A model generated the notes under the pieces. That model had not been told where the DNA came from. It did not search any database and saw nothing but the letters and a program-made list of their open reading frames with translations. Shown piece by piece: positions 853 through 16,799 of a stretch of 64,000 bases of DNA. The translations under genes were made by a program, and so were the position numbers. Source of the DNA: an uncultured Gammaproteobacteria bacterium (lineage in GTDB: Bacteria > Pseudomonadota > Gammaproteobacteria > Eutrophobiales > Eutrophobiaceae); assembly GCA_943788815.1 (NCBI GenBank), contig CALSRS010000002.1, positions 431,062 through 495,061 of the forward strand, written 5' to 3'. The stretch's first letter is position 1. Each line of letters begins with the position of its first letter.

Positions 853-1308
853 ATGTACAAAAATATATTAATCGCCACAGACGGATCTGAATTTGCCCAG
901 ACAGCATTTAATCATGGTATTGACCTGGCCCGTTCCATGAAAAGTGCGGTCACTGTTGTGACTGTTACCGAACTGTGGTCTGCACTGGAAATGGCACAAA
1001 AGGTTCGTAGTGGCAAAACTAATCCAACTGAAGAATATGAAAAACATGAAGATGAAATTGCTAATAATGTTCTGAGTAAATCTGAAGAAATAATCAAGAG
1101 TCATGGACTGGATTGTGAATTGATCCATATCAGAGACAAACATCCAGCTGATGGGATTATTGAAACAGCTGAAGAAAAGGGATGTGACCTGATTGTTATG
1201 GCTTCTCACGGAAGGCGGGCTATACAAAAAATTCTCCTGGGGAGCATCGCGTCTGAAGTCCTGGCACACAGCAAAGTCCCCGTACTGGTGGTTAAGAAAA
1301 ACAACTAA
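853..1308 (+). CDS. Universal stress protein, UspA family
   Basis: Single-domain Usp protein of 151 aa, the family's usual length. The N-terminal strand ILIATDGSEFAQ carries the conserved Asp of the nucleotide pocket. The C-terminal motif ASHG-x9-GS matches the ATP-binding G-2x-G-9x-G(S/T) loop, except that the first glycine is alanine. A ribosome site (GGAG) lies 7 bases upstream of the ATG. The gene stands alone between divergent and convergent neighbours. Usp proteins bind ATP or other nucleotides and help stress survival, but the specific role here is unknown. Confidence 0.9.
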   Translation: MYKNILIATDGSEFAQTAFNHGIDLARSMKSAVTVVTVTELWSALEMAQKVRSGKTNPTEEYEKHEDEIANNVLSKSEEIIKSHGLDCELIHIRDKHPADGIIETAEEKGCDLIVMASHGRRAIQKILLGSIASEVLAHSKVPVLVVKKNN

Positions 1309-1312
1309 GGCG

Positions 1313-1340
1313 TGGGAGGTTCGATATATTGAACCTCCCA
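1313..1340. terminator. Bidirectional hairpin between convergent usp and iorB-like genes
   Basis: A perfect 10-bp stem (1313-1322 with 1331-1340) with an 8-base loop sits in the short gap between two convergent genes. The flanking T-tract is weak on both strands, so termination strength is uncertain. Confidence 0.55.
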
Positions 1341-1362
1341 TATTTCATAAGAAATTTCTAGA

Positions 1363-3537: not shown

Positions 3538-3540
3538 AAC

Positions 3541-3993
3541 TTAACCCTCCACTACTGCACGTTCAATTGCAGCTAGAATTCGATTATAGGTCCCGCACCG
3601 GCAGATATTTCCATTCATATGCCTGATGATCTCATCTCGGTTAGGTTTGGGGTTTTCCGCAAGCAGCTCAGCAGCTTTCATGATCTGTCCAGATTGGCAA
3701 TATCCACATTGAGGGGCTTGTTCTGCAATCCATGCTTTTTGCAGTGGATGTGAGTCATCTGGTGATAAGCCTTCAATGGTAGTGATCTGCGTATTTACGA
3801 CATCACCAACTTTTATCGTGCAGGACCGCATGGCTTTTCCATCTATATGGACTGTGCATGCACCACATAAGCCTGCACCGCATCCATATTTTGTCCCGGT
3901 AAGATCAACATGATCCCGTATCACCCAAAGTAAGGGCGTATCATTTTCAATGTCCAGGGATACCGCTTTCCCATTAAGGGTAAATTCGACCAT
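3541..3993 (-). CDS. Molybdenum hydroxylase 2Fe-2S subunit (IorA-like)
   Basis: Iron-sulfur subunit of 150 aa, typical for IorA/CoxS. The N-terminal plant-ferredoxin-type cluster is seen in CGAGLCGACTVHIDG and the following conserved Cys (MRSC). The C-terminal helical-domain cluster is seen in CGYCQSGQIM and ICRCGTYNRI. It would pass electrons from the molybdenum site of the adjacent large subunit to an acceptor, probably after co-export with IorB since it has no signal peptide of its own. A ribosome site AGGTGG precedes the ATG. First gene of a two-gene operon, divergent from a RidA-family gene. Confidence 0.9.
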   Translation of the reverse strand: MVEFTLNGKAVSLDIENDTPLLWVIRDHVDLTGTKYGCGAGLCGACTVHIDGKAMRSCTIKVGDVVNTQITTIEGLSPDDSHPLQKAWIAEQAPQCGYCQSGQIMKAAELLAENPKPNRDEIIRHMNGNICRCGTYNRILAAIERAVVEG

Positions 3994-4292
3994 ATTTCCA
4001 CCTATTCAGTAATAGAAATTAAAGTTTGATTTGATTTGAATCTAATGATGCAAACGCTACACTTAAGCCTAAATCCTGTCAAACCTCGTAAATATTCTGC
4101 CGCTAAAATAATATGAATATTTACTGAATAAAAAGAATTATTAATGATTACAAGTGCTTACAGATGCTCGTTTGACACCTACCTGGAGAGTTGAATCTCC
4201 AAGATTCCCATAAATTACTAATGCGGAAGATAGTAGCATCTTGCATATACCTGCGGGTATCATTTATGGCACACAACATAATCAGGGTTACA

Positions 4293-4676
4293 ATGGAATC
4301 CATCACACAAATTACAAGTACCGAAGTACCTGAACCTGAAGGAAATAACTTTAGTAATTGCCTGCAGGTAGGTAAACAACTATTTCTGTCAGGCATGATT
4401 GCATCTGATCCGCAAACGGATGCGTATAGCCAGTCAGTCTCCTGTCTGTCAAAAATTAAAACGCTCATTGAAGCAGCAGGTGGCAACATGTCTGATATTG
4501 TAAAAATTACAGTTTTTCTGACTGATATTAATTTTCGTACGGATTTCAGCCGTGCGCGGTCCGAATTTTTTCCAGGCAGGAAACCTTGTTCAACCCTTGT
4601 GGGAATAAGCTCATTAGCAAACCCGGGGCTCGTTGTGGAAGTTGAAGCAATCGCAGTTATTGGTGCGGGGGAGTAA
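4293..4676 (+). CDS. RidA/YjgF/YER057c/UK114 family protein
   Basis: Rid-family protein, 127 aa from the ATG at 4293 (AGGG ribosome site about 6 bases upstream). An in-frame extension to 4191 exists but would add residues before the normal family start. Family signs are LFLSGMIASD, the helix around SKIKTLIEAAGGNMSDIVKITVFLTD, and the C-terminal VEVEAIAV. In KPCSTLVGI the position of the imine-deaminase arginine (Arg105 of E. coli RidA, usually in PAR) appears to be Ser. It may therefore belong to one of the Rid subgroups that lack 2-aminoacrylate deaminase activity. It is followed 7 bases later by an ABM-domain gene, probably co-transcribed. Confidence 0.85.
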   Translation: MESITQITSTEVPEPEGNNFSNCLQVGKQLFLSGMIASDPQTDAYSQSVSCLSKIKTLIEAAGGNMSDIVKITVFLTDINFRTDFSRARSEFFPGRKPCSTLVGISSLANPGLVVEVEAIAVIGAGE

Positions 4677-4683
4677 TTAATAT

Positions 4684-5001
4684 ATGTATTTGATATTTAA
4701 TCGAATTAAGGTACGAGATGAACACCTTAACGAATTTCTGGACGGTGTGAAAATTCATGCGAACCATTCAAATAATGAATCAGGATGTGTACGCTATGAA
4801 GTCTTACAGGACATAAGCGACCCTCAAATGATTTTTTTATACGAAGTATTTGAAGATGAGACAGCTTTTAAATTACACCAGACTCATGATTACTACAAGG
4901 AGTGGATGGAAAAATCAAAGCTTTGGCGACATAGTGAAGAACGGATACGACACGTGCTCGATTATATTTACAGCCCGGAAAAAGAATATAAAGCAAAATA
5001 A
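4684..5001 (+). CDS. Antibiotic biosynthesis monooxygenase (ABM) domain protein, YgiN-like
   Basis: Small dimeric ferredoxin-fold protein of 105 aa. The pattern is that of ABM/quinol monooxygenase proteins such as E. coli YgiN: an N-terminal beta strand with RIKVRDEH, a helix with HANHSNNESGCVRYEV, FLYEVFEDETAFKLHQ, and a closing helix around HDYYKEWMEKSKLW. Members act on quinols, polyketides or haem, and the sequence gives no substrate. Probably translated with the RidA-like gene 7 bases upstream. Pairing of RidA and ABM genes next to a molybdenum hydroxylase suggests a shared aromatic or amine-related pathway, but this is inference. Confidence 0.8.
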   Translation: MYLIFNRIKVRDEHLNEFLDGVKIHANHSNNESGCVRYEVLQDISDPQMIFLYEVFEDETAFKLHQTHDYYKEWMEKSKLWRHSEERIRHVLDYIYSPEKEYKAK

Positions 5002-5010
5002 TTACGATAT

Positions 5011-5039
5011 AAAAAAAGCCACCTCATTGTGAGGTGGCT
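5011..5039 (-). terminator. Rho-independent terminator, TonB receptor side
   Basis: A perfect 10-bp stem (5017-5026 with 5030-5039) with a 3-base loop lies between convergent genes. On the minus strand it is followed by seven T (5017-5011), making a strong terminator for the TonB receptor. The plus-strand side (attatta) is weaker but may also stop the RidA/ABM transcript. Confidence 0.85.
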
Positions 5040-5073
5040 ATTATTAGTTATAAATTGATTAACTTAGGTATGT

Positions 5074-7032
5074 TTATCTATAGTTATACTCAAACCGGAT
5101 TCCATAGGAACGAAATGACGCCTTTGAAAGACCGCGATCTTCAGAGAATTTTATCCCTGTCCGGGTCAGATCATATTCGGGTCTAAAAATAATCCGATCT
5201 TCCATCAGGTTGCGGACAAAGCCGGTTACCTTCCAGGTACCGTCCTGGGGACCAAACCCACCTGAGAGATTCATGTCCCAGTGGCCACTATTATACATGC
5301 GTGACCGATCCAGGTTTTCAGCAAGGATGGTTTTTTCACCTTCTACATAGCCCTGTGCATTGATGAAGACTTCAAAACTGTCCAGCACCGGCAAGGTATA
5401 CGTACCACCCAGGACAAACTTAAAGGGAGGCGCAAAGGCCGGTCTACGGCCGGAACTGTCGATAGTAAGTTCTTCCCCCAGCGATGATGTCTCAGCAGCA
5501 AATTCAGGTGTATCTTCCAGCCGACAACCGCCGTTGATCAATAATTCGCTGGGAAGTGCACTGGCACTGGGAAGGGTATTCCAGAGTTGTCCCATGTTAT
5601 CGCGGATGTCCGAGGCAAAGGCCAGTTCACCTGCTGTCCTGCCACCCGGGTTATCAAGGGCATCAATGGAAGCAGCGATGATCTCCGTATCGGTACAACC
5701 ACGACCATCAAAATCGGTAAATCGAGCATCCATAATGGATCCTGCCAGGAACACAGTCCAGTTGTCGGTGATGGCGGCATTGATATTAAATTCAATACCG
5801 TCAACCTTTTGTTTACCGGCATTCAGGCTTTGTCCCTGCTGGTCTATCGTGTCAGTGGGATCAAAGGACGCCACCGCCGCATCTGTCTGCAGGTCAGTGA
5901 ATTCCTGAAGATATCCGGAAACACTGTACCTGGCCCGGCCATCCATTATCGTACCTCGAGCACCAATCTCGTATGCCTCAGCAAATTCCGGAGTAAACTG
6001 GATGGTTTCCAGGGAGTCCGGCAGGGTGGAGGTTCCGGTATCGGTTACCGGTCCCTTGAAGGCCTCTGCATACTTGGCATAAAAGGTATGGCTACCGTCC
6101 AACGCGTCCGGTGTAAAACTCAAAACCACCTGGCTGCTGTAATTGTCCGCGTCCTGGACAATATCTTCGATACAACTATCACAAGGCCCCCAGGGTCCGT
6201 TGCGGTTTGGATATTCTGGTGCGGTGAGTCCCACTGCTTGGGCCTGGGCGCCACGGTAATTTAGTGGTATGTTAATTCGTCTGCGCCACACTGACGTGGT
6301 CCAGAGATTGTCCATATCCGCAGGCAGATAAATGCGCGGACTGTCCACCCGGACCTGTCTGCTGGCCCGCCATCCACTGGTACCGTCCCCACCTAATCCG
6401 GTGGCACCTGTTCCAAGTGGGTCAAACGTATCGACTATCGTGCGAGTCGTCAGGCTTGGGTCCACCCGCTTGAATTCATCATGAATGGGGCAGGTCGCAG
6501 GATTGTCATCCAGGGTGGGGTTATTGCCCGGGTCATCATCACAGGGTGTAACATCAAAGATCAACGATGCGCCATAACCCTGCATAAAGACCTCTTTATG
6601 GACATCAGCATACCGACCTCCCACCTGCAGGGACAACTGATCATCCAGGAAACGGAAATCCAGTTCCCAGAACGCGGACTTCCAGTTGGCATCCTCCCAG
6701 ACACTGTTGAACCGTTGGCCACGCCTGAGATTACCCCGGATGTTGCTGGAGAATACGTCCAGATCATGTTCCTGGTAAAAACCGCCAAACATGAAATTGA
6801 CATTGACACTATCAGATAATTGGAAACCAGCGCCTTCTACCCGGATCTGTTGGCTGGTCTGGTACATATCCACCCGCCGATGTTGGTTACTGTCTGCAAA
6901 CGGCTGATTTCCACTATCCGCGTTGGCATCACGGAGATATCTTACATAGGCAGTCTGAGAATTAACCGAGATACCATTATCAAATTCATAGGTAAGGTCC
7001 ATCAGGGCATGATAGGAATCAATATTATCCAT
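5074..7032 (-). CDS. TonB-dependent receptor, C-terminal part (frameshifted from the N-terminal part)
   Basis: Beta-barrel portion of an outer-membrane TonB-dependent receptor. The 652 aa from the first in-frame ATG are rich in alternating strands (QVVLSFTPDALDGSHTFYAKYAEAFKGP; FAEAYEIGARG; FKFVLGGTYTLP) and end in a barrel-closing strand YGIRFEYNYR. The frame is open upstream of this ATG to an in-frame TAG at 7363-7365, and the extra translation (ending in GNGNRGMDNIDSYH) reads as ordinary receptor sequence. The real start is therefore in the gene part at 7253-8182. The two frames differ by a one-base loss (or equivalent) within 7256-7362. Substrate unknown. As written the gene is broken unless the indel is a sequencing error. 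Confidence 0.85.
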   Translation of the reverse strand: MDNIDSYHALMDLTYEFDNGISVNSQTAYVRYLRDANADSGNQPFADSNQHRRVDMYQTSQQIRVEGAGFQLSDSVNVNFMFGGFYQEHDLDVFSSNIRGNLRRGQRFNSVWEDANWKSAFWELDFRFLDDQLSLQVGGRYADVHKEVFMQGYGASLIFDVTPCDDDPGNNPTLDDNPATCPIHDEFKRVDPSLTTRTIVDTFDPLGTGATGLGGDGTSGWRASRQVRVDSPRIYLPADMDNLWTTSVWRRRINIPLNYRGAQAQAVGLTAPEYPNRNGPWGPCDSCIEDIVQDADNYSSQVVLSFTPDALDGSHTFYAKYAEAFKGPVTDTGTSTLPDSLETIQFTPEFAEAYEIGARGTIMDGRARYSVSGYLQEFTDLQTDAAVASFDPTDTIDQQGQSLNAGKQKVDGIEFNINAAITDNWTVFLAGSIMDARFTDFDGRGCTDTEIIAASIDALDNPGGRTAGELAFASDIRDNMGQLWNTLPSASALPSELLINGGCRLEDTPEFAAETSSLGEELTIDSSGRRPAFAPPFKFVLGGTYTLPVLDSFEVFINAQGYVEGEKTILAENLDRSRMYNSGHWDMNLSGGFGPQDGTWKVTGFVRNLMEDRIIFRPEYDLTRTGIKFSEDRGLSKASFRSYGIRFEYNYR

Positions 7033-7252
7033 CCCACGGTTGCCGTTCCCATCAGTACCGACTTCTCCCGGAACACCGGGGCCCGCAGGTTGGGAGTGAA
7101 AGGCATTTTGCAGATCTGCGATATCCAGAAAACCATCGGTAATATCATTTTGCCCTGACCTTACTATATTGGTAATAACTGGTTTGACCCACGGACCATT
7201 ACGGCTGATCCCGTAATCATCCTCGAAACAATCTTCACCACGAAAGGCCGGG

Positions 7253-8182
7253 TCAAACTGGACGATACCCCGGGCGATCGGCGTTGGAAAATCCGCCTTC
7301 TGATTCGGGTATCCAGACCCGGTCTGCCAGACCTCTGTCGAGACTGAGATCGTCGATTCCTTCTAGGGGGGACTCCGAATAACCAAGAGGGCGCCCTGGT
7401 GCGACACAGCCAGTCAACATTTCTCCACCATTTCGCTGGCGGTTAAGCTCAAATTTTGTCATGGCTGTAAATTTCTCATTCGGGGTCCATTCCACAATAC
7501 CGCGCCCACCCAGAGACTCAAACTGGGGAAACTTGTTGTGGCTGACACGATCTATCAGAAGACCGTCCAGGGCATCGTAACTACCCGCCAGGCGAATTCC
7601 CCAGGTATCGTTTATTGGTCCACCGATTGCACCGAACAACTCGCGCTTGCCGTCATTACCAAACTCGGCCGCGATATCACCTTCCCATGCATCAGTGGGT
7701 CGTTTACTGGTGATATTAAAGGCACCGGCACTGGCGTTCATTCCAAAGTGCAGAGACTGGGGACCATTAAGCACCTCGACACGCTCGGTATCCATAAAGG
7801 CGTTCTTAATCATCGATGATTTACCAAAATGAACGCCATCGACAAACAATGGTGTGGCAGAAGTTAAGGTTAGTGACGTTCCTGCCGTTCCGAAACCGCG
7901 GATGGTTGTATTCTGGCTGGATGTACCGTCTGCAATATTGACGGTGGCTGAGTACCGGGCCAAATCATCGAGATTTTTATAACCCTGTAAATCGATCTGC
8001 TCACCGGAATAAACATTTACGGAGATAGGGACTTCCTGGAGTGACTGTTCCCGGCGCTGGGCGGTAACAACCACCTCTTCGAGTACCTGTGCCTGTAAAT
8101 TCACGGCCCCAAAAGATAATGTAATGACATTAAAAAAAAGGATTAACCATTTGATGTTTAAGGTATACAGAAATGTTTTCAT
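7253..8182 (-). CDS. TonB-dependent receptor, N-terminal part with plug domain (frameshifted)
   Basis: The first 309 codons of the same receptor. A signal peptide spans residues 1-31 (MKTFLYTLNIKWLILFFNVI onward) and is followed by a TonB-box-like EEVVVTAQRRE. The plug domain then includes VPISVNVYSG, TTIRGFG and a typical plug end, RVEVLNGPQSLHFGMNASAGAF. The first barrel strands follow. The frame ends at TGA 7253-7255. In the -1 frame the sequence continues smoothly as barrel sequence (IVQFDPAFRGEDCFEDDYGI), so a frameshift separates this ORF from 5074-7032. Together the parts give about 1035 codons, a normal receptor length. Confidence 0.85.
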   Translation of the reverse strand: MKTFLYTLNIKWLILFFNVITLSFGAVNLQAQVLEEVVVTAQRREQSLQEVPISVNVYSGEQIDLQGYKNLDDLARYSATVNIADGTSSQNTTIRGFGTAGTSLTLTSATPLFVDGVHFGKSSMIKNAFMDTERVEVLNGPQSLHFGMNASAGAFNITSKRPTDAWEGDIAAEFGNDGKRELFGAIGGPINDTWGIRLAGSYDALDGLLIDRVSHNKFPQFESLGGRGIVEWTPNEKFTAMTKFELNRQRNGGEMLTGCVAPGRPLGYSESPLEGIDDLSLDRGLADRVWIPESEGGFSNADRPGYRPV

Positions 8183-8336
8183 TGTCCCCCCCGAGAGCTT
8201 ATTGAAATATCTGCTTGAAATACTATCAAACCTAAGTATTTATGTCTAAATTACCATTTCGTTGTTTATATACCATATTCTGATATTCTAGTTTAACTAC
8301 GAACGCGAGCTATGTCGGTAATGTTAACTAAAATAG

Positions 8337-10208
8337 TTAAGCTTCATCTGACCATAAAGCAATTCTTCGCCCATATTCTTTAAGAACAGGTTGCAACCTC
8401 TCCTTCACCTTGGGTCGAAAGCGGGTATCATCAGCTTCAAGCCCACCACGACCGGGGACACAAACACCATGAGGACCTGATGGTGGATTCAGTCCTGCAC
8501 CCAGTTCAAGTAGCGTCTCAGTAGTCGCTGGCCTTGGTAAGGTTCGGTCCAGCAGACCGGTACTATCATTTGCCAATGCCAGTCCCATAGGAGTTTGACC
8601 ACAACCATTCATTACATCAACCTGTGCACCCTCTTCTACCAGAAACCGAATCAATTTGTTGGCGCCGATAAAAGCCGCTGCATGTAATGCTGTCCAGCCG
8701 CTTTCAGTTATCGCGTTGACATCTGCACCCATAGTCACCAGGCGTTTTGCAATCTGCAATGCATTTTCTTCTTCATCGAAGGTCATATCACTTCTTCTAC
8801 CGATGCCAACGGCAGCCATTAAGGTAGTCGCATTCGCCACCACCATATTATCTTCTGCTGGTAATTTAACTTGCTTGTTAAAAATCTGATTGTTTATTTG
8901 GGTTGTCATTATTGCATCAGCTGAATGCTCCAGAAGCATTGCCGCTGCAACTTCGTCCTGTGCTGCTGCGGCAAGAAAAAACGGGGTTGCATTATTTAAG
9001 GTAAACCATGGCGTAATATCCAGTCTCATTGCGCCAGGTGGTTGCTTCATTCTGGCATTAGGATCTGCCCCGGCTGCAAGTAGTGCACCAATTAAGCGAT
9101 GCATATTATGACCCGGCATTAACTTGTCACCTTTATATCCATATTTAAATCCGGAATCGGGTTCTACGGTATACACCTCAGCATTAAGCACTTTCATGTA
9201 TTCGCGTTGTTCTTCATTTAAAATCTCATAGGGTTTACATAAAAAAGTTTCATTGGCGAAATTACAAACCATGGTCTTGTCTGTAATGATGCGTCCGTGG
9301 AGTATTTTAATTCCGTCCCTGAGCGCATAATGCAACGCGGTCATGCCATTCCCATCTGCTATATTCGGATTGGCACCCTGTGCCAGAAGAAACATTGCCA
9401 GGTCTTCGTGCCCTTGTGACGCCGCCATAATCAGAGGATTACCGTCCCCGATAGAATTGGTAGTTACATCGGCGCCATGTTCCACTAGATACCTGGCAGT
9501 ATTTAGATCACCTACCCGTGCTGCAAAAAGAAGCGGTGTATACCCCCCCATCGACACAGTATCTATGGTTGAACCACCATAGCCTTCCAATTGCAATGGT
9601 ATAAATTCTTCATTTAACGGTATTGTCGATGCATTCACATCTGCACCTCGGTCTACCAGTACTTTTGCTGCTTGGGGATAGCCAAAGGAGATTGCCCACA
9701 TTAATGCACTTTGATTGCGCCTGGGATCCTGTACATTCATATCTGCGCCATGGTCCAGTAGCAAGTTCATCGCCTCGGTAAAGCCGGTTCGCGCCGATGT
9801 CATTAATAGCGTTTCACCACTCCAGTTGGCCGCATTGGCATCTGCACCAGCTTCAAGCAACAGTTTCACCATTGAAATACTTCTATTTTCCATCGCCAGG
9901 TTCATTGGTGTGATCCCATAATCATTGGCGATATCCGGATCTGCCCCAGCACCCAGTAAATCCCGAACAGACAGCGAATTATCATGATAGACGGCATGAG
10001 CCAGGGCAGTGGTCCCATCGGCCTGTGTTACATTGACGTCCGTCCCCTTGTCCTTTAATAGTGTCTGAATTGATTGCCAGTCCTGATTTCGGGCCGCATT
10101 AATTAATGTTATTTCTGAAGCACGAGGAGATATTACATTCGTGATTGATATAATGAATGCAATATAAAAAGTCGCTTTTATTAGAAAACTGGAATACTGA
10201 TTTACCAT
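8337..10208 (-). CDS. Exported ankyrin-repeat protein (paralogue 1)
   Basis: 623 aa. Residues 1-31 form a signal peptide (hydrophobic FLIKATFYIAFIISI), so the protein is predicted to be periplasmic or secreted, unlike classical cytosolic ankyrins. About nine ankyrin repeats are visible in two blocks (roughly residues 33-310 and 380-590), with recurrent hallmarks such as GADPDIANDYGITPMNLA, GADANAANWSGETLL and TALHAAAF. A non-ankyrin insert (about 315-380) separates the blocks. It is paralogous to the next gene upstream over its whole length. The GGGGGG ribosome site precedes the ATG. Ankyrins bind proteins; the partner is unknown, but the neighbouring DUF1552/DUF1592 proteins are candidates by context. 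Confidence 0.88.
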   Translation of the reverse strand: MVNQYSSFLIKATFYIAFIISITNVISPRASEITLINAARNQDWQSIQTLLKDKGTDVNVTQADGTTALAHAVYHDNSLSVRDLLGAGADPDIANDYGITPMNLAMENRSISMVKLLLEAGADANAANWSGETLLMTSARTGFTEAMNLLLDHGADMNVQDPRRNQSALMWAISFGYPQAAKVLVDRGADVNASTIPLNEEFIPLQLEGYGGSTIDTVSMGGYTPLLFAARVGDLNTARYLVEHGADVTTNSIGDGNPLIMAASQGHEDLAMFLLAQGANPNIADGNGMTALHYALRDGIKILHGRIITDKTMVCNFANETFLCKPYEILNEEQREYMKVLNAEVYTVEPDSGFKYGYKGDKLMPGHNMHRLIGALLAAGADPNARMKQPPGAMRLDITPWFTLNNATPFFLAAAAQDEVAAAMLLEHSADAIMTTQINNQIFNKQVKLPAEDNMVVANATTLMAAVGIGRRSDMTFDEEENALQIAKRLVTMGADVNAITESGWTALHAAAFIGANKLIRFLVEEGAQVDVMNGCGQTPMGLALANDSTGLLDRTLPRPATTETLLELGAGLNPPSGPHGVCVPGRGGLEADDTRFRPKVKERLQPVLKEYGRRIALWSDEA

Positions 10209-10268
10209 GACTCTGATCCCCCCTAGATCTGATCTAATAAATTAGTCAGCAAATTATCCTTTATTTAC

Positions 10269-10304
10269 AAAAAAAAACGGGGCTTAAGTCTCTCTTAAGC
10301 CCCG
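10269..10304 (-). terminator. Strong intrinsic terminator between the two ankyrin genes
   Basis: A perfect 11-bp stem (10278-10288 with 10294-10304) and 5-base loop are followed on the minus strand by nine T (10277-10269). It lies after the upstream ankyrin gene and before the downstream one, so the two paralogues are probably separate transcription units. Confidence 0.88.
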
Positions 10305-10338
10305 CTTTCTAAAAAGATCTAAATAAAATTAACTCGAC

Positions 10339-12207
10339 TTATAGCGAAGCCCGGTCCTGCCATTTTGCTTTTCGCTCTTCAAGTCTTTGATTAACCACCT
10401 TAATCGCGTCCAGTACTAACTGATTCTGGGCCGTATCATTTTCCAAACCACCTCGACCACCTATACAAAACCCTACCGGCGGTGATGGCGGTTTAAGTCC
10501 AGCCCCCAGATCCAGTAATAAATTAGCCGTATCGACACGTGGTAAGGTTCTGTCCAACATACCCGCAGTACTATCTGCGAGCGCAAGACTGATAGGCGTC
10601 CTGCCACAGGCTGTTGTTGCATCAATATCTGCACCATTTTCAACCAATAGCCTAATCAGCATATCGGAACCCAAAAATGCCGCAGCATGTAATGCGGTCC
10701 AACCAGACTCTGTCGTTTCATTCACATCAGCGCCCTGGGTGATCAGAATTTCGGCAATCTTGACCGCGTTTTCTTCTTCATCAATCGTCATATCGGCACG
10801 CCGACCCATACCAACCGCAGCCATTAAAGTAGTTGCGTTACCTACCACAGAATTATCCTCTGCAGGTAATGCCGATTGAGATGAAAATAATTCTCTCGGC
10901 ATATCTGTAGTCATCATAGGTTCCGCACCTTCTTCCAGAAGGATTGAAATGGCATCCAGATCCTGGCTGGCAGCGGCAAGGAAAAATGGTGTGGCATTAT
11001 TCATTGAAAACCAGGGATTACGCTCCAACCTGAGAGCAGCGGGGGGATATTTCATTTTTGCATTAGGATCAGCACCTGCATCGATTAATGCTGAAGCCAG
11101 TTTTAGCATATTAGGCCCCGGTAATGGCTTGCTACGGTCATATAATTTAGGTTTGACTAAATAGACCTCAGCTTCAGGCGAGGCAACATATTCACTTTGT
11201 TGTTCATTTAATGTCTCATACGGACGGCAAAGAAAGTTTTCTCCACCAAAATTACAATACAGATCCTTATCTGTAGTGTATAAGCCATGCAAGGCTCTAA
11301 TACCTGTGCGCATTGCATAATGAAGTGACGTCATACCATTTTCATCTGTGACATTGGGATCGCCACCCTTTGAGAGAAAGTACAACGCCAGGTCTTCATA
11401 TCCCAGAGAAGCAGCCATTAGCAGAGGGTTGCCGTCTGTTTGCGATACTGCATTCACGTTGGCACCGCGGTCCACCAGGTATTTTGATGTCTCCATATCA
11501 CCGTTACGTGCGGCAAATAACAAAGGGGTATATCCACCCATAGGCAAGGTAGTGACTGTCGAACCCTCATACCCTTCCAATCGCAACGGGGTAAAATCTT
11601 CCTTCAACTGAATTGTCGATGCATTCACATCGGCCCCACGGTCGATCAAAAATTTTGCAGCATCCGGATAACCAAATGATATTGCCCACATCAAGGCACT
11701 CTGCTGACGCCGTGGATCCTGAAAATTTATATCCGCACCATGGTCCAGTAATAGCTTCATTGCTTCAGCAAAGCCTGTCCGGGCCGAGGTCATTAACAGC
11801 GACTCGCCACTCCAATTCGCCGCATTGGCATCGGCACCCTCTTCAAGCAACAATTTCACCAAGGGTAAACTGCGGTTTTCCATTGCGAGATTCATTGGCG
11901 TAATCCCATAGTCATTGGCCATATTGGGATTCGCGCCTTTCTCCAGTAACGCTCTAACAGACTCTACGTTGTCATGGTAAACAGCATGGAACAGGGCAGT
12001 TGTCCCATCAGGTTCCGTAACATTGACGTCTGTGCCCCGAGCTTTTATCAAGGACTGGACCAATGTCCAATCCTTGTCCCGGGCAGCATCAATCAATTTC
12101 GATTCAGAGGCGATACTTACAGTACTAACACTCGAAAGCATAAATGCAATCAGTATAAACACCACTCCTTTAATCGAACAAACGTCTTTCGTAAAGTCTG
12201 TATACAT
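10339..12207 (-). CDS. Exported ankyrin-repeat protein (paralogue 2)
   Basis: 622 aa from the ATG at 12207. That start is supported by the strong ribosome site GGAGAAGG about 8 bases upstream; an in-frame TTG at 12225 would overlap this site and is not used. Residues 1-35 form a signal peptide ending near SVSIASES. Ankyrin repeats match those of the downstream paralogue repeat by repeat (for example GADANAANWSGESLLMTSAR and TALHAAAFLGSD), with the same central insert carrying Cys residues in CNFGGENFLCRPYE. The cysteines are also conserved in paralogue 1 and could form a disulfide in the periplasm. It lies 19 bases or more after the DUF1552 gene, probably in the same transcript as DUF1592-DUF1552. 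Confidence 0.88.
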   Translation of the reverse strand: MYTDFTKDVCSIKGVVFILIAFMLSSVSTVSIASESKLIDAARDKDWTLVQSLIKARGTDVNVTEPDGTTALFHAVYHDNVESVRALLEKGANPNMANDYGITPMNLAMENRSLPLVKLLLEEGADANAANWSGESLLMTSARTGFAEAMKLLLDHGADINFQDPRRQQSALMWAISFGYPDAAKFLIDRGADVNASTIQLKEDFTPLRLEGYEGSTVTTLPMGGYTPLLFAARNGDMETSKYLVDRGANVNAVSQTDGNPLLMAASLGYEDLALYFLSKGGDPNVTDENGMTSLHYAMRTGIRALHGLYTTDKDLYCNFGGENFLCRPYETLNEQQSEYVASPEAEVYLVKPKLYDRSKPLPGPNMLKLASALIDAGADPNAKMKYPPAALRLERNPWFSMNNATPFFLAAASQDLDAISILLEEGAEPMMTTDMPRELFSSQSALPAEDNSVVGNATTLMAAVGMGRRADMTIDEEENAVKIAEILITQGADVNETTESGWTALHAAAFLGSDMLIRLLVENGADIDATTACGRTPISLALADSTAGMLDRTLPRVDTANLLLDLGAGLKPPSPPVGFCIGGRGGLENDTAQNQLVLDAIKVVNQRLEERKAKWQDRASL

Positions 12208-12244
12208 AGCGTTAACCTTCTCCAAATTTAATATTACAGGCTTA

Positions 12245-13588
12245 TTAAGCTGGTTTACTCAGATCAAGCTCACCGTCTGACATACCCAGTTCACCGCCAA
12301 AACTCTCTGTTTCAATACCCATCTTGTTAAGCATGGCGACATGAAGGTTAGAGAATGGCGTACCCTCTTTATAGAGTACGTGACGACCACCCTTCAGAGT
12401 TCCGCGTCCGCCACCAACTAATGCAACGGGTACGTTCCACTGACTGTGTATATCAGCATTCCCCATACCTGCACCGTAGACTAACATGGAATTATCCAGC
12501 AGGGATGTCCCATCAAGGTCCTTGGTTGCATCCATTTTGGCAAGGAACTCACCAAATAATTTCGCATGATAGGCATTGATATCGCCAGCCCTGCGGATTT
12601 TGTCTGGATTACCCCTGTGATGGGTTGTGGGGTGATACGGATCGGTATGGCCCAGATTGGTAAATACCAGCTCACTGTATTCACGCGCAATCATGAAGGT
12701 AAAGACTCTGGTCATATCTGTCTGGAAAGCCATATGCAACAAGTCATACATCAAGCGTGAATGTTCCTCATATTCAGGAATACCCACTGGCCTTTGCATG
12801 TCTGGCAACTCCATGTTTACTGTTGATTCAGCTTTCTGGATACGTGATTCCACATCCCGTAAAACGGTTGTAAATTCTTCCAGTTTAGCCTGATCTGCTA
12901 CACTCAATTTTTTCTTGGCACGCGCAAAGTCTTCCATCACAAAGTCCAGAATACTTTTCTGTTCTGCAATACGTTCCTTACGGGCCTGAGGGTCGGTGCC
13001 CGCATCACCAAATAGCCTTTCAAATACATCGCGCGGGCGATGCATCATCGGCATTGGTGAAGTAGGGCTACTCCAGGATATGGTATTGGTATAAGCGGAG
13101 CTGTACCCACCTGCAGATTGTCCTGCAAGCTCTGCGGCATTCTCAATACACAGTTGTAATGAATTAAGAGGTGTGTCCTTACCGAATTGTCTGGCTATGA
13201 CCTGATCAACTGAGATTCCTGCATAGATTTCACTTAGGGACTCATTTGGCTTGGCTCCGGTCAGGAACATAGTGCTACCACCAACGTGCCCACTGACACT
13301 TTCGGCATCACCGTTATTCAGATTACTGAGAACCAGGACTTTATCGCGGACATGTGCCCATTCTTTTAAAACTTTTGACATCTCATAATTGCTGCCCGCA
13401 CTAGTTGGTCGGAAAGCATCTTTGATTATGCCATTGGGACTATAGGTGTACCCTACTCGAAGTGGCATCTTGACAGCATTGGTGTTTGCCAGCGCTGGAA
13501 ACATCGCATCCATCATTGGCAGGGCAACCGAGGCCCCAAGTCCACGTAAAAAAGTTCGGCGCGGTATTGCTTTCTTAAATATCATCAT
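12245..13588 (-). CDS. DUF1552 domain protein, Tat-exported
   Basis: 447 aa protein of family DUF1552, found beside DUF1592-type cytochromes in planctomycetes and proteobacteria; the molecular function is not established. A twin-arginine signal (PRRTFLRGLGASVALPMMDA, Arg10-Arg11) predicts Tat export of a folded protein. The body shows an alkaline-phosphatase/sulfatase-like flavour (YSPNGIIKDAF; SNLNNGDAESVSGHVGG; NSMLVYGAGMGNADIHSQWN), but I do not identify a catalytic residue with certainty. Its ATG overlaps the stop of the upstream cytochrome gene (ATGA), so the two are translationally coupled and probably act together. Confidence 0.88.
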   Translation of the reverse strand: MMIFKKAIPRRTFLRGLGASVALPMMDAMFPALANTNAVKMPLRVGYTYSPNGIIKDAFRPTSAGSNYEMSKVLKEWAHVRDKVLVLSNLNNGDAESVSGHVGGSTMFLTGAKPNESLSEIYAGISVDQVIARQFGKDTPLNSLQLCIENAAELAGQSAGGYSSAYTNTISWSSPTSPMPMMHRPRDVFERLFGDAGTDPQARKERIAEQKSILDFVMEDFARAKKKLSVADQAKLEEFTTVLRDVESRIQKAESTVNMELPDMQRPVGIPEYEEHSRLMYDLLHMAFQTDMTRVFTFMIAREYSELVFTNLGHTDPYHPTTHHRGNPDKIRRAGDINAYHAKLFGEFLAKMDATKDLDGTSLLDNSMLVYGAGMGNADIHSQWNVPVALVGGGRGTLKGGRHVLYKEGTPFSNLHVAMLNKMGIETESFGGELGMSDGELDLSKPA

Positions 13589-16011
13589 GATCCTGCCCTC
13601 CTGTTTTGAAATGGTAAGCTATTAACAATTCCTAATACGATACTTGAAAATCTGTAATCATCTTCTGCTGCCTGCTCAAGTACTTTACGAACAGACGGCA
13701 TGTCGTAATGTTCTAATGGTCGACCCAATGCATAGGTCATTAGCTTCTGAGTAAACGCACCCGCAATGACTTCAGGTGTGCTTAGTAAAGCTTCTTGTAA
13801 TTCAGCCGGACCTTCAAACTCAACACCACTGGGCAACCTGCCTTTGGCATTAATGGGTTTACCCACATCAAGATCCCGCCACTGACCAATGGCATTATAA
13901 TTTTCGAGACCGAAACCAATTGGATCCATCTGGTTATGACACACAGCACAGACAGGATTGGCCGGATGGATTTCCATCCGCTGACGGAGCGTAAGGACTT
14001 CACCGTCCTGACCCTTGACATCTTCCAGAGGTGGTATATCCACAGGTGGGGGTGGTGGCGGTGAAGCTAGAATATTTTCCAGCACCCACTTACCCCTTAG
14101 CACTGTTGAATTCCTGTTAGGGTAAGAAGTGATTGACAAGATTCCAGCTCGAGCGAGTAATCCTCGTTGATTCTCATCGATTTTTACTTTACGAAATCGA
14201 TTTCCATATACACCCTCGATGCCATAGTGCTTGGCCAGTCGTTCATTCAGATAGGTATAATCCGCATTAAACAGATCCAATATGGAACGATCATCTTCAA
14301 AGATACTACCAACAAATAGTGTCACTTCATCATAAAAGGCGTTGCGTAATTCCTCATCGAAAGTTCGAAACACGTCACTACTCTTATGAGCTTGTGGTAA
14401 ATTTCTTAGTAACAGCCATTGTTCAGCAAAATTATTTACCAGTGATGCAGAACGATTGTCTTCCAGCATCCTCTTGACTTGAGCCTCCATGACCCTGGGG
14501 TCATTTAGTTTACCTCTCTCGGCCAACGTCAATAATTCATCATCCGGGATGCTACTCCACAACAGGAATGACAACCTCGAAGCCAGGGCAATGTCATCTA
14601 ATCCATAGTTCTCACCCGGCTTAATGCCCTGGGGATCGGCCTCTATCCTGAACAGGAATTCTGAACTCATCAATAGACCTTCCAGAGCCTTGCGGACTCC
14701 CATATCAAAAGAGCCGCTACCCTGACGCCCTTGCTTATATAGTCCCATTAGTGGAGCAATATCCGCATCATTAACTGGTCTGCGATAAGCCAACCTGGCT
14801 CGTTCGGCAATAATTTCTTTTGCGCAGGATTCTTCCTGTGATCTATTTTTTGGCGTACAGGTGAAGACCTTTTCACGGCTAGCTGTATTACCAACTCCTT
14901 TAACCTCGTAAGGCCCGTTAATTGTAATATTTGCTATTGCTGGTTCATGCCAGGCCCGCTCGTAAGGTTCACGAATTCTAGCCGAGTAGTAATTCTCATA
15001 GTTAGGCTGAGGAACGACTACCCCTTCCCAGGCAAAATTCTCCTTGAGAAATGCCACCTGAACCGAATGTGAACCTGCCGTCATGGGGAAACGTACTGTT
15101 AATGCTTCATCCGCGGTTCTTTCATACATGGATTGAGCAGGATCCGGTGGGACAGTATCAGAGGCCTCACGACCCAATCCGACGCCGATATTGTCGCCTC
15201 CAACTGTCATTAATTCGACTCGTTTTCCATCTACTCTAAAATCCAGACGATTGGGTTTGGCCAGACCAACAATTAATCCGCCACCCTGATTCTGCAGAGC
15301 GACCTGTAATTCATAGATACCGTCAACGGGGAAACGATGTGCAACAGACAATCCACCACGTGAACCATACGGTAAGTCTTCGCTCATGCGCTCATCTTGC
15401 AACAACTTGGGATCCACCGTGTACTGAAAGCTGTCCAGTTCTGTCTTCGGGTCACCAATGGCAAGACGGGTCACCAGGCGTGCAGCAGACATATATTTTT
15501 CAAGCAGAACCTGAGAAACACTCAAAAGATCTCCCAGGTTATCAAAACCACCTGAGTTATCAGGTGGTAGGCTTGCGGCTCCATCAAAATCCACCCCCAT
15601 GAGGTCGCGCACAGCATTGGTATATTCAGTACGGTTCAAACGGTGAGTGGCAATTTCCCGGCCAGGGTTAGGGTTCTGATCAGAAATCTGGTTAAGTTCA
15701 GTTTTCAGGTGGGATACAAATGAACTATAAAATTTTTCATCTGGTCGTGGCATACCTACCGGAGGCATAGATCTGAGTGATAATTTGGTTATGACTCTTT
15801 CCCAAATCTCGGGGCTTTCGCTCAAGTCATTCAGGTTTGCCTTGTCCAGTAATAGATTTGCAGTTTTTAAGGTCTCGTTATGACAGGTCACGCAATATCG
15901 GTTTATGGTATTTTGATATTCATCAATACTCTGTGCTGCAAGAGATGTCCCAATTGTGATTAGACAGATACTTGTTAGTACCCTGAAGATAGATCGATAA
16001 AATTGATGCAT
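13585..16011 (-). CDS. DUF1592/DUF1588/DUF1587/DUF1595/DUF1585 multidomain cytochrome c-like protein
   Basis: 808 aa protein with the planctomycete-type PSCyt domain set. A signal peptide covers about residues 1-26. A c-type haem motif CVTCH is at residues 40-44. The middle holds a carbohydrate-binding-like segment (FPVDGIYELQVALQNQGGG) and helical DUF1592 regions (LASRLSFLLWSSIPDDELL). A second haem motif CAVCH lies near residue 690, followed by MDPIGFGLENYNAIGQWR, the hallmark of DUF1588. It should be periplasmic and redox-active. The start has a GGGGGA ribosome site. It heads the unit DUF1592-DUF1552-ankyrin. The substrate is unknown in the family. Confidence 0.9.
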   Translation of the reverse strand: MHQFYRSIFRVLTSICLITIGTSLAAQSIDEYQNTINRYCVTCHNETLKTANLLLDKANLNDLSESPEIWERVITKLSLRSMPPVGMPRPDEKFYSSFVSHLKTELNQISDQNPNPGREIATHRLNRTEYTNAVRDLMGVDFDGAASLPPDNSGGFDNLGDLLSVSQVLLEKYMSAARLVTRLAIGDPKTELDSFQYTVDPKLLQDERMSEDLPYGSRGGLSVAHRFPVDGIYELQVALQNQGGGLIVGLAKPNRLDFRVDGKRVELMTVGGDNIGVGLGREASDTVPPDPAQSMYERTADEALTVRFPMTAGSHSVQVAFLKENFAWEGVVVPQPNYENYYSARIREPYERAWHEPAIANITINGPYEVKGVGNTASREKVFTCTPKNRSQEESCAKEIIAERARLAYRRPVNDADIAPLMGLYKQGRQGSGSFDMGVRKALEGLLMSSEFLFRIEADPQGIKPGENYGLDDIALASRLSFLLWSSIPDDELLTLAERGKLNDPRVMEAQVKRMLEDNRSASLVNNFAEQWLLLRNLPQAHKSSDVFRTFDEELRNAFYDEVTLFVGSIFEDDRSILDLFNADYTYLNERLAKHYGIEGVYGNRFRKVKIDENQRGLLARAGILSITSYPNRNSTVLRGKWVLENILASPPPPPPVDIPPLEDVKGQDGEVLTLRQRMEIHPANPVCAVCHNQMDPIGFGLENYNAIGQWRDLDVGKPINAKGRLPSGVEFEGPAELQEALLSTPEVIAGAFTQKLMTYALGRPLEHYDMPSVRKVLEQAAEDDYRFSSIVLGIVNSLPFQNRRAGS

Positions 16012-16319
16012 TCGTCCCCCTTAATATTGACGCCTGAAATAAGTACTTTCCCACTAGATACTTGGATAGCATTATAGTCCAATTTATACCTTATAAAAGG
16101 GGTATTATTTTCAGATAGGTGAATTACAAATATCACTTAAATATCAAGTAGTTATAATTGATATATCATGTCGATAATATCGTAATAAATTAGGTTCAAA
16201 GATGGCATTGTATGAGCGATCCAGAATAAGAAGACCTGACAATCCGGTTTAATACAGATTTTATCGGGTGTAATGCGACTATCTATGGTCGCCTAATAGC
16301 TTGGTTTCTTATGGTTAAA
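16012..16319. other. 308-bp AT-rich intergenic region with no gene recognised
   Basis: Lies between the start of the DUF1592 gene and the 3' end of tRNA-Leu, both on the minus strand. It must hold the promoter of the DUF1592-DUF1552 unit. I see no tRNA, no ORF longer than about 20 codons with family resemblance, and no clear integrase attachment repeat. Confidence 0.5.
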
Positions 16320-16404
16320 TGGTGCCGATGGGGAGACTCGAACTCCCACGGGTTTCCCCACTACCCCCTCAAGATAGCGTGTCTACCAATTCCACCACAT
16401 CGGC
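16320..16404 (-). tRNA. tRNA-Leu (anticodon GAG)
   Basis: The minus strand folds as a class II tRNA. The acceptor GCCGATG (16404-16398) pairs with CATCGGC, the D-arm is GGTGGAATTGGTAGACAC, and the anticodon loop is CTTGAGG with anticodon GAG. A variable arm follows, then the T-loop GTTCGAGTC, and the encoded 3' ACCA occupies 16323-16320. It closely resembles E. coli tRNA-Leu(GAG), which likewise follows secG. Confidence 0.95.
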
Positions 16405-16415
16405 ATGGAAAGTCT

Positions 16416-16799
16416 TTATTGTTGAGGCAAATCAGGTATCTCTGAAATCTCAGAATCAGGATCAATGGGGATTTGATTAATGACTGAAGAAGTCGGCTCC
16501 GCTACCTGTTCAATAATAGCGGTGGCATCATCCATTAGACTGGTATTGGAACTTTGAATGCGTTGATTTGAGATGTAAGCCAGACCCAAACTATTTGCTA
16601 GAAATACGAACGCCAAAATTGCCGTTGTCTTGGTTAAAAAATTCCCGGAACCCTGCGAACCAAAAACCGTGTTTGAAGACCCACTGCCAAAAGCAGCACC
16701 AGCATCTGCACCTTTTCCATGTTGAATTAATATCAATCCAATCAGGCTAATTGCGACTAAAACCTGTAAAACTAGAAATATTGTTTGTAACGTTTCCAT
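16416..16799 (-). CDS. secG: Preprotein translocase subunit SecG
   Basis: Small inner-membrane subunit of the SecYEG translocon, 127 aa. Two transmembrane helices lie at about residues 3-24 and 57-77. They flank the conserved cytoplasmic loop GLILIQHGKGADAGAAFGSG and the segment NTVFGSQGSGNFLTKTTAIL. The C-terminal acidic tail is variable, as usual. It sits directly between tpiA upstream and tRNA-Leu downstream, the conserved gammaproteobacterial order. Confidence 0.96.
   Translation of the reverse strand: METLQTIFLVLQVLVAISLIGLILIQHGKGADAGAAFGSGSSNTVFGSQGSGNFLTKTTAILAFVFLANSLGLAYISNQRIQSSNTSLMDDATAIIEQVAEPTSSVINQIPIDPDSEISEIPDLPQQ

Follow-up and report, generated by a model that had tools for sequence, protein, structure and literature searches.

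Five neighbouring minus-strand genes at positions 5,074 to 16,011 of the window (the whole 64,000-nucleotide stretch of DNA analysed, from an uncultured gammaproteobacterium) raise the question of whether a cytochrome of the DUF1592 type, a DUF1552 protein, two ankyrin-repeat proteins and a TonB-dependent receptor belong to one functional unit. The original prediction had tentatively placed all five in such a unit. We consider it about an even chance (probability near 0.5) that the locus represents one of many copies of an exported redox cassette of three genes, consisting of a metalloprotein of alkaline-phosphatase (AP) fold, a di-haem cytochrome and a dedicated ankyrin partner (ANK).

Organization of the locus

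The cassette genes and the receptor are all encoded on the minus strand in the order DUF1592, DUF1552, ANK1, ANK2, TonB receptor. The features identified are as follows.

13585..16011, minus strand: exported DUF1592-type di-haem c-type cytochrome, 808 aa, first in the cassette, identified by its Pfam domains
15880..15894, minus strand: haem motif 1, CVTCH, residues 40-44 of DUF1592
13936..13950, minus strand: haem motif 2, CAVCH, residues 688-692 of DUF1592
14899..15450, minus strand: predicted CBM35/36-like beta sandwich in DUF1592, residues 188-371, from a structure match
13585..13588, minus strand: ATGA overlap of the DUF1592 stop and the DUF1552 start
12245..13588, minus strand: DUF1552 (HXXSHH) protein, Tat-exported, predicted AP fold, 447 aa, PF07586
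13544..13561, minus strand: twin-arginine motif RRTFLR of DUF1552
13286..13288, minus strand: H101 of DUF1552, start of a predicted helix, putative nucleophile position from motif and fold
12617..12634, minus strand: H319-x-x-x-H323-H324 motif of DUF1552 (HPTTHH, residues 319-324)
12446..12448, minus strand: H381 of DUF1552, fourth conserved histidine
10339..12225, minus strand: ANK1, exported ankyrin-repeat protein, 628 aa counted from a TTG, Ank_2 213.7 bits
8337..10208, minus strand: ANK2, second exported ankyrin-repeat protein, 623 aa, Ank_2 187.2 bits
5074..8182, minus strand: TonB-dependent receptor with one frameshift, plug ORF 7253-8182, barrel frame 5074-7362
5017..5039, minus strand: terminator-like stem and T-run past the receptor, from a consensus scan

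Of the five exported genes claimed originally, DUF1592, DUF1552, ANK1 and ANK2 are borne out by their coordinates, domains and N-termini, and the claimed ATGA coupling, Tat signal of DUF1552, two haem motifs of DUF1592 and signal-peptide-like hydrophobic N-termini of both ankyrin proteins were all located. The extent given for the receptor has to be revised. The ORF 5074-7032, taken for the whole protein, represents the barrel part only and lacks a signal peptide, while an ORF of its own in a different frame (7253-8182) encodes the plug and signal peptide, the barrel frame being open to 7362. In three sister species the orthologue is one uninterrupted gene (1029, 1037 and 1035 aa); since the window's plug piece corresponds to orthologue residues 13-306 and its barrel piece begins at residue 304, the two pieces tile one gene with one frameshift at about 7255-7360, which may be a real mutation or a sequencing error.

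DUF1552 and ANK1 are separated by 19 bp, and the true start of ANK1 may lie downstream of the TTG. ANK2 shares 63% identity with ANK1 and is a duplicate inside the window locus. The terminator-like site at 5039-5017 has a 10-bp stem, the longest among the terminator-like sites of the region (consensus matches only, 17 against 10.8 expected in shuffles, sd 3.7), and would fit transcription of DUF1592 through the receptor as a single unit. Promoter-like sites in the region show no excess (23 against 23.5 in shuffles).

Recurrence in the genome and the genus

The order DUF1592, DUF1552, ANK is found in 17 of the 18 DUF1552 genes of this genome. Across five species of the genus, 78 DUF1552 matches were obtained, of which 75 distinct genes were examined, leaving out three contig-end fragments of G375, and 71 of the 75 lie in full cassettes (77 rows were counted, two repeating genes read from overlapping loci). 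Two solo DUF1552 orthologues (L021, L077) and one cassette-type ANK without the pair (L184, in G377) were also encountered. In G387, G136 and G685 the cassette is complete in three of three. The cassettes make up about 2.9% of the genome, calculated from nominal gene lengths, and their paralogues are old, judging by median identities of 47, 45 and 39% within the genome, the last for ANK. Mantel tests of co-divergence, run on the 67 cassettes left after short pieces had been removed from the 71 full ones, gave r of 0.94, 0.93 and 0.89 (p 0.001). Co-divergence is likewise expected from linked genes inherited together.

The TonB receptor is a looser companion that accompanies only some copies. 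Of the 35 plug domains in the genome, 9 lie no more than 10 kb from a DUF1552 gene (3.1 expected by rotation, p 0.02) and 5 no more than 6 kb (2.1 expected, p 0.09). In the genus a receptor occurs within 8 kb in at least 31 of the 77 DUF1552 rows, many flanks not extending that far. In the window's orthologous group the receptor adjoins ANK in all four species. PQQ genes are also enriched: of 11 such genes, 5 lie no more than 10 kb from DUF1552, where 0.96 would be expected (p 0.005). Some cassettes are flanked by PQQ dehydrogenases, amidohydrolases or molybdenum hydroxylases; Pfam assignment of 20 cassette neighbours showed some hydrolases among them. One neighbour, L184_07, was considered as a GMC oxidoreductase and rejected, NCBIfam assigning it to thiamine-pyrophosphate enzymes.

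Linkage in distant bacteria

The 80 named loci used for comparison are the best 80 of 550 relatives of a DUF1552 alignment that held cassette-type sequences only, and therefore lean toward the cassette clade; 79 are from outside the genus, while L146 is very probably a contig of the sister species G378. Counted by six-frame HMM matches, DUF1552 and DUF1592 are adjacent in 77 of the 80. An ankyrin gene stands beside the pair in 64, is clearly absent in 7, and the locus is cut off in 9. Its position varies: 3' on the same strand in 41, divergent 5' in 18, 5' on the same strand in 4 and 3' convergent in 1. Seventy ankyrin matches fall within 3.5 kb of a pair and two elsewhere in these loci; the ankyrin of L145 is one of the two, although it is scored as adjacent in the count of 64. 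In the complete acidobacterial chromosome G811, ankyrin accompanies 22 of 24 fetched copies, which were the higher-scoring among the matches listed, judged by eye, one of them (L195) repeating named locus L175. A TonB receptor was detected in one named locus of 80 (L106) with models built on the genus receptors.

Enrichment of ankyrin genes beside DUF1552/DUF1592 pairs, on which the original prediction had been made to depend in advance, was thus found in every count (71/75; 64/80; 22/24; 70 against 2). Because of this enrichment, the DUF1592, DUF1552 and ANK part of the proposed unit is supported; the receptor is found with only some cassettes. The linkage spans Acidobacteriota, Alphaproteobacteria and Gammaproteobacteria, including Novosphingobium. 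The Novosphingobium genomes checked have a single copy; three Vicinamibacterales genomes hold 34, 38 and 42 DUF1552 copies. At the sequence level, the trio stays linked across phyla in differing arrangements, and its members diverge in concert. A linkage that outlasts changes of gene order points to function more than to shared descent alone. Recurring 17 times in one genome and often in distant soil and water bacteria, the cassette is a real, undescribed biochemical unit.

Pairs without ankyrin are also found. The divergent DUF1592/DUF1552 pairs have no ankyrin gene in nine of nine examined, nor does one clade of 11 DUF1552 rows, indicating that ankyrin is dispensable for the basic work of the pair. 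In a quick DUF1552 tree with long branches, in which L146 is a duplicate row, the genus copies nest with acidobacterial ones. The distribution is patchy, with 6 of 53 genomes in the family and 6 of 370 in the class.

DUF1552 fold and conserved histidines

The DUF1552 protein matches PF07586 with 296.7 bits (cut-off 30) over positions 1-306 of the 307-position profile and carries the HxxSHH-like motif as HPTTHH. A twin-arginine motif of the RRx[FV][LI] type is present in 66 of 67 cassette DUF1552 proteins and HxxxHH in 67 of 67. The structure model (pLDDT 83.9) aligns with sulfatase 7stt (Z 16.4, 273 aligned, rmsd 4.1) and nucleotide pyrophosphatase 2gsn (Z 16.2), and 436 of 1000 compared chains reach Z of at least 8; Foldseek scores are modest (best E 3.8e-4, TM about 0.4). 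An AP fold is predicted on this basis. No solved relatives of DUF1552 or DUF1592 were found by sequence search.

H101 and H381 are invariant in all 71 aligned sequences. All 25 cassette-type rows have H101, H319 and H323, as do all 9 divergent DUF1552 proteins, which share only 14-30% identity with the others; H381 is present in all 25 and in 8 of the 9. From the motif and the helix start, H101 appears to sit where AP-fold hydrolases hold their nucleophile, and the metal ligands would be mostly histidines, with HxxxH replacing the DxxxH of the AP superfamily. As the DUF1552 profile gave weak local alignments only with E. coli sulfatases and PhoA, we infer this metal site from the predicted model and the motif positions.

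DUF1592 cytochrome and ankyrin proteins

DUF1592 possesses PSD4, PSCyt3, PSD2, PSD3 and PSD5 domains over cut-off, with PSCyt1 just under it (21.2 against 22), and is assigned to the DUF1592/PSD family both by these domains and by its CxxCH motifs. C40, C43 and H44 of the first haem motif, C688, C691 and H692 of the second, and M82 are invariant in 53 sequences, and two CxxCH motifs occur in 66 of 67 cassette proteins. Its sequence marks it as exported and as carrying two haem motifs of the c type. In its structure model (pLDDT 88.7) the match to the PDB is limited to the CBM-like sandwich, which aligns with 2w47 at a borderline VIA-align Z of 7.8 (110 aligned, rmsd 3.2), other jelly rolls scoring almost equally.

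A PF12796 scan of the genome identified 18 ankyrin frames, all 18 in DUF1592-DUF1552 cassettes; 17 immediately follow DUF1552, and the remaining one, ANK2 of the window, follows another ANK. By a hydropathy heuristic, 64 of 67 cassette ANK proteins have a hydrophobic N-terminus, against 2 of 67 interior controls; the stretch is of Sec type, and the ankyrin proteins thus combine ankyrin repeats with an export signal, as periplasmic ankyrins do. Ank_2 matches at E 1e-12 number 19-40 in the five genus genomes and at most 6 in each of the other 48 family genomes. Five family members without DUF1552 (G379, G382, G383, G384 and G390) have large ankyrin proteins with no DUF1592/DUF1552 match in the stretches fetched, some of them short contigs. 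These ankyrins score 58-156 bits, a range that does not set them apart, as the cassette ANK of G685 scores 108. Anti-phage defence was dropped as a reading: PADLOC matches on the window proteins (PDC-M72A and Ankyrin) are confined to the ankyrin repeats, with none on DUF1552 or DUF1592.

Comparison with known systems

The AP superfamily, including sulfatases, NPPs and PhoA, has the fold predicted for DUF1552 but uses Ser, Thr or formylglycine as nucleophile, where DUF1552 has His at the inferred position. A locus for sulfated polysaccharides was rejected, the genome containing just one sulfatase match, and PF01663 phosphodiesterase has no match in the genome. Polysaccharide utilization loci of the SusC/SusD type resemble the cassettes in that one genome can carry many paralogues coding for exported proteins, a TonB receptor being present in some. 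A SusC/SusD locus was nevertheless rejected for the window: the plug piece reaches 26.4 bits with the SusC model, far under the cut-off of 368, and the barrel piece was not listed, the two being scored apart; and no SusD was found among the ten window proteins scanned (868-16799, two small plus-strand genes at 4191-5001 lying outside the scan). Cbp2D of Cellvibrio japonicus is a larger modular protein that is also exported. According to PMC8981238, it combines a DUF1587 domain with the c-type cytochrome domain X183 and is able to reduce LPMO; it has X and FN3 domains, whereas the window DUF1592 has two haem motifs and none of those modules. A Cellvibrio DUF1592 protein with CBM2 is listed in the lignocellulose study PMC6004670.

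The PSCyt/PSD genes of Planctomycetes and Verrucomicrobia share Pfam domains and the pairing habit with the window cassette. According to PMC5615132, on freshwater Verrucomicrobia, PSCyt2/PSCyt3 genes usually adjoin each of two uncharacterized gene families about whose functions nothing is known; a search of its main text did not find DUF1552, and its passages on these genes name no ankyrin third gene. Among 16 further loci, three repeat named ones (L215 = L153, L217 = L176, L223 = L174). In four distinct planctomycete/verrucomicrobial loci, ankyrin is absent with room in two (L216; L176 = L217), absent from a cut-off locus in one (L153 = L215) and present in one (L218). The closest likeness for the ankyrin is periplasmic AnkB with catalase KatB, also an exported ankyrin tied to a haem protein: PMC7567364, on Leptospira, which names AnkB, describes ank and katE as one operon and such ankyrin proteins as probably acting by allowing haem binding. 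The partner there is a catalase, whereas the window ANK proteins are flanked by DUF1552, DUF1592, another ANK and the receptor, with no catalase.

Proposed function and alternatives

In the cassette as we read it, DUF1552 would be the catalytic part, binding at least one metal ion through its four family-wide histidines, and DUF1592 would act as its electron donor or acceptor, with the CBM-like sandwich of the cytochrome aiding ligand binding. The ankyrin protein would be a dedicated partner that docks on DUF1552 and/or DUF1592 and keeps the periplasmic complex intact. Different substrates may be served by different paralogues of the cassette, imported for some by a neighbouring TonB receptor, and adjacent PQQ dehydrogenases, amidohydrolases and molybdenum hydroxylases may act on these compounds or their derivatives. 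The role first suggested for the locus, in which substrates are taken up and processed by redox chemistry, is likewise conjectural.

ANK may instead help the haem or metal protein to mature, or protect it, with DUF1592 and DUF1552 alone as the working enzyme. The pairs without ANK favour this, as does the statement in PMC7567364 that the catalases of P. aeruginosa and C. jejuni need ankyrin proteins to be active; we regard it as possible though doubtful, because each cassette has its own ANK, at 39% median identity in this genome, and one general factor would be enough for 17 paralogues. That DUF1552 is a sulfatase, phosphatase or esterase with a separate role for the cytochrome agrees with its top structural matches, sulfatases and phosphodiesterases, and with the hydrolases among cassette neighbours. 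It is unlikely, since all 71 aligned proteins and all 9 divergent ones have His, rather than Ser, Thr or Cys, where the nucleophile would sit; the sulfatase TSDHG Asp-His falls (in a weak alignment) on a non-matching DUF1552 stretch; and DUF1592 adjoins DUF1552 in 77 of 80 named loci.

Passive duplication or lateral movement of the block, with no selection for joint function, would account for the patchy distribution and for genus copies nesting with acidobacterial ones, but is very improbable for paralogues this old, with motifs intact in 66-67 of 67 and linkage kept while gene order varies. The idea that the ankyrin proteins target eukaryotic partners, in symbiosis or grazing escape, and lie beside the redox pair by accident draws on some loci that, from their isolate codes, presumably come from sponge MAGs, and on weak matches to NCBIfam injected ankyrin effectors (at most 113 bits against a 600-bit cut-off), which any ankyrin repeat might give. 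Ankyrins of animal-associated acidobacteria are so interpreted in PMC8841776. Linkage across Acidobacteriota, Alphaproteobacteria and Gammaproteobacteria, with 70 matches near the pair and 2 elsewhere, makes this hardly credible.

Beyond the redox cassette as such, a bolder form is offered as speculation: DUF1552 would be a new class of exported metalloenzyme, in which four histidines have replaced the nucleophile and metal ligands of the AP fold and make a redox-active metal site. The di-haem cytochrome would be connected to it electronically, and the ankyrin would be its own periplasmic subunit, clamping the assembly. With as many as about 40 copies in a genome, each for its own substrate, such cassettes would be the redox analogue of polysaccharide utilization loci.

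Implications

The earlier description of the locus was largely correct but understated the cassette. No report of ankyrin as the third part of a DUF1592-DUF1552 module was found in the literature searched. For DUF1552 and DUF1592, both widely recurring domains without an assigned function, the ankyrin third member, the predicted AP fold and the four histidines provide testable handles. As all 18 ankyrin frames of this genome belong to cassettes, the exported ankyrins of such bacteria should not be counted as eukaryote-directed effectors. Given its share of this genome and its copy numbers in Vicinamibacterales, the module is probably a major part of the extracytoplasmic activity of these bacteria.

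Genes of the locus

The locus proposed in the original prediction, five consecutive minus-strand genes for exported proteins, is made up of the first six of the following features, and three more lie beside it.

13585-16011, minus strand: DUF1592 gene (di-haem cytochrome)
12245-13588, minus strand: DUF1552 gene
10339-12225, minus strand: gene of ankyrin protein 1
8337-10208, minus strand: gene of ankyrin protein 2
7253-8182, minus strand: TonB receptor plug ORF, with signal peptide
7362 down to 5074, minus strand: open frame of the TonB receptor barrel
5039-5017: terminator-like stem of 10 pairs, just past the TonB receptor
4191-5001, plus strand: two small ORFs (161 and 105 amino acids) that separate the molybdenum hydroxylase genes from the receptor
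1363-3993: molybdenum hydroxylase pair, a large subunit with a twin-arginine-like signal plus a 2Fe-2S subunit

The DUF1592, DUF1552 and two ankyrin genes are present as predicted, and the ATGA overlap joining the first two is confirmed in the sequence; the receptor placed at 5074-7032 is part of a gene only. Its plug and barrel ORFs occupy different reading frames and, since three sister species have intact orthologues (1029, 1037 and 1035 amino acids) beside their orthologous cassettes, the window receptor is judged from these sequences to carry one frameshift, either real or from sequencing. The genome has another split TonB receptor (L016:47-2874; ORFs of 595 and 243 amino acids), so that the frameshift in the window may reflect assembly indels or decay. 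The molybdenum hydroxylase pair sits past both the stem and the two small plus-strand genes, which share this bidirectional terminator-like stem with the receptor side. Elsewhere in the window, the ORF at 19142-19954, which we take to be ScpB-like, closes with a Pro/Glu-rich unit of 15 residues repeated about four times.

Cassettes in the genome and the genus

The genome (3.23 Mb, 99% complete) yielded 18 DUF1552, 17 DUF1592 and 82 Ank_2 matches in a domain search, the last in 18 open frames. All 18 ankyrin frames fall within 17 cassettes of the order DUF1592, DUF1552, exported ankyrin-repeat protein (ANK); 17 lie immediately 3' of DUF1552, and the second ANK of the window, 63% identical to the first, stands behind it. 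The eighteenth DUF1552 is solo beside an alpha/beta hydrolase, as is its orthologue in the sister species G375; the neighbours of this gene (L021:8424-9773; L077), which include neither DUF1592 nor ANK, are kept in the two species. Across the genus (five genomes), 78 DUF1552 matches were found and 75 distinct genes examined, giving 71 full cassettes, two solo orthologues and two genes at contig ends.

Among the other 48 family genomes, DUF1552 occurs as one copy in G387 and is absent from 47; any DUF1552 is found in 6 of 370 sampled genomes of the class and 8 of 398 of the phylum, own genome included. Ankyrin domains are present in 38 of 53 family genomes, with 19-40 strong matches per genome in the genus versus at most 6 in the others. 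One cassette-type ANK of the sister species G377 (L184:8623-12558; 558.7 bits) lies outside any cassette, without DUF1552 or DUF1592; it lies next to the genes of a thiamine-pyrophosphate enzyme, whose start is twin-arginine-like, and of a small protein.

Distribution beyond the genus

The ANK gene accompanies the DUF1592/DUF1552 pair in all three of G387, G136 and G685. From named genomes 80 loci were collected, the best of 550 relatives of the cassette-type DUF1552 alignment, one of which (L146) is very probably from the sister species G378; record titles include Alteromonadaceae, Novosphingobium, Sphingomonas, several orders of Acidobacteria and Pseudohongiella. DUF1592 adjoins DUF1552 in 77 of the 80, and ANK stands beside the pair in 64 (3' on the same strand in 41, 5' divergent in 18, 5' on the same strand in 4, 3' convergent in 1), nine loci being cut off. 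Ankyrin matches number 70 at up to 3.5 kb from the pair (788 kb) versus 2 elsewhere (430 kb), so the co-occurrence for which the original prediction asked a count across genomes is borne out. The seven clear absences, with room on both sides (L131, L132, L140, L142, L158, L165, L176), all fall within a single clade of 11 rows (support 99), the other four of which are cut off; this clade spans Acidobacteriota, Armatimonadota, Planctomycetes, Verrucomicrobia and Hydrogenedentota. Nine divergent DUF1552 proteins (G124, G064, G047, G126, G481, G585, G501, G765, G650), 14-30% identical to cassette-type copies, all have an adjoining DUF1592, and none has ANK within the stretches fetched.

Among 24 genomes, DUF1552 is present in as few as 1 copy, for example in those checked from Novosphingobium, Sphingomonas and Alteromonadaceae, and reaches 34, 38 and 42 copies in three Vicinamibacterales. 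For the complete acidobacterial chromosome G811, 24 of 38 copies were fetched; DUF1592 adjoins all 24 and ANK 22 (absent at L196 and L203). Among 16 further loci from eight genomes, three of which repeat named loci, ANK occurs in 10 (L218, L219, L220, L222-L226, L228, L230) and none was seen in L215, L216, L217, L221, L227 and L229, with L215, L221 and L229 cut off on one side.

The joint unit originally proposed thus stands as a real unit of three genes, and the TonB receptor is only an optional companion of it. Judged by gene content and order, DUF1592, DUF1552 and ANK form a conserved, highly multiplied module of three genes for proteins with predicted export. A literature search in one paper collection, accession and motif queries included, found no paper treating both DUF1552 and DUF1592 and no report of ankyrin as third cassette member.

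Evolution of the cassettes

Distance matrices of the three proteins are correlated over 67 cassettes (r 0.94, 0.93 and 0.89; permutation p 0.001) and within this genome alone (0.90, 0.87 and 0.82), where median identity among paralogues is 47% for DUF1592, 45% for DUF1552 and 39% for ANK. In the quick tree, six acidobacterial rows cluster with the genus copies (support 95), and at least four label changes are required; because of this grouping and these changes, an acidobacterial-like source may have supplied the cassettes, either on more than one occasion or ahead of some of the duplications.

The three proteins

Export, claimed originally for all three proteins, agrees with the predicted signals: a twin-arginine motif in 66 of 67 DUF1552 proteins of cassettes, and an N-terminal hydrophobic stretch in 64/67 ANK and 61/67 DUF1592 (interior control, 2/67 each).

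No solved relative of DUF1552 was found from the single sequence, and a profile search returned one match at chance level (E 0.72). Its predicted model (pLDDT 83.9) matches alkaline-phosphatase-fold enzymes over residues 38-447, for example a sulfatase (Z 16.4, 273 aligned, rmsd 4.1) and a nucleotide pyrophosphatase (Z 16.2, 245 aligned, rmsd 3.6); Foldseek supports the fold less strongly (best E 3.8e-4, TM about 0.4). All 71 aligned sequences carry H101, H319, H323 and H381; the first three are kept in 9/9 divergent proteins, H381 in 8/9. H324, H341 and H403 have frequencies of 0.99, 0.94 and 0.96 in the 71 sequences but occur in 0/9, 1/9 and 1/9 of the divergent ones. Sulfatases carry a C-x-P-S-R-...-LTG motif at a helix position, and the alkaline phosphatase superfamily (sulfatase, PhoA) has a DxxxH metal motif. 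H101 starts a predicted helix and is followed by LTG; on the model, it would occupy the place of the sulfatase motif, and H319xxxH323 would resemble the metal motif.

For DUF1592, a single-sequence search likewise found no solved relative. The predicted model (pLDDT 88.7) contains a CBM35/36-like sandwich at residues 188-371, with a borderline score (Z 7.8, 110 aligned, rmsd 3.2). All 53 sequences compared keep the two haem motifs and M82, a likely axial ligand. According to a Verrucomicrobia paper, nothing is known of the functions of PSCyt genes, and their CBM fusions are noted there (PMC5615132). A cytochrome domain of Cbp2D, which has a DUF1587 domain, can reduce LPMOs, as stated in another paper (PMC8981238).

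Genomic neighbours and possible role

Pfam assigns 18 of the 20 genes adjoining this genome's cassettes, among them PQQ dehydrogenases, amidohydrolases, dienelactone hydrolases, an amidase, small cytochromes and beta-propellers; the other two gave no Pfam match. PQQ genes of this genome are enriched within 10 kb of cassettes (5/11 versus 0.96 expected, p 0.005), as are TonB plugs at this distance (9/35 versus 3.1, p 0.02), though less clearly within 6 kb (5/35 versus 2.1, p 0.09). Four consecutive TonB plug domains lie beside the L019 cassette (G000:C1:707438-717003; at 707438, 710508, 713674 and 716683). Three further cassettes in the genus (L046, L050, L061) have a molybdenum hydroxylase pair at up to 8 kb, and PQQ matches, counted without background, also occur in acidobacterial and gammaproteobacterial loci. 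The mechanism proposed would involve a metal site, electron transfer and ankyrin docking, and the cassette neighbours are compatible with the extracytoplasmic oxidation of small organic molecules as a putative role.
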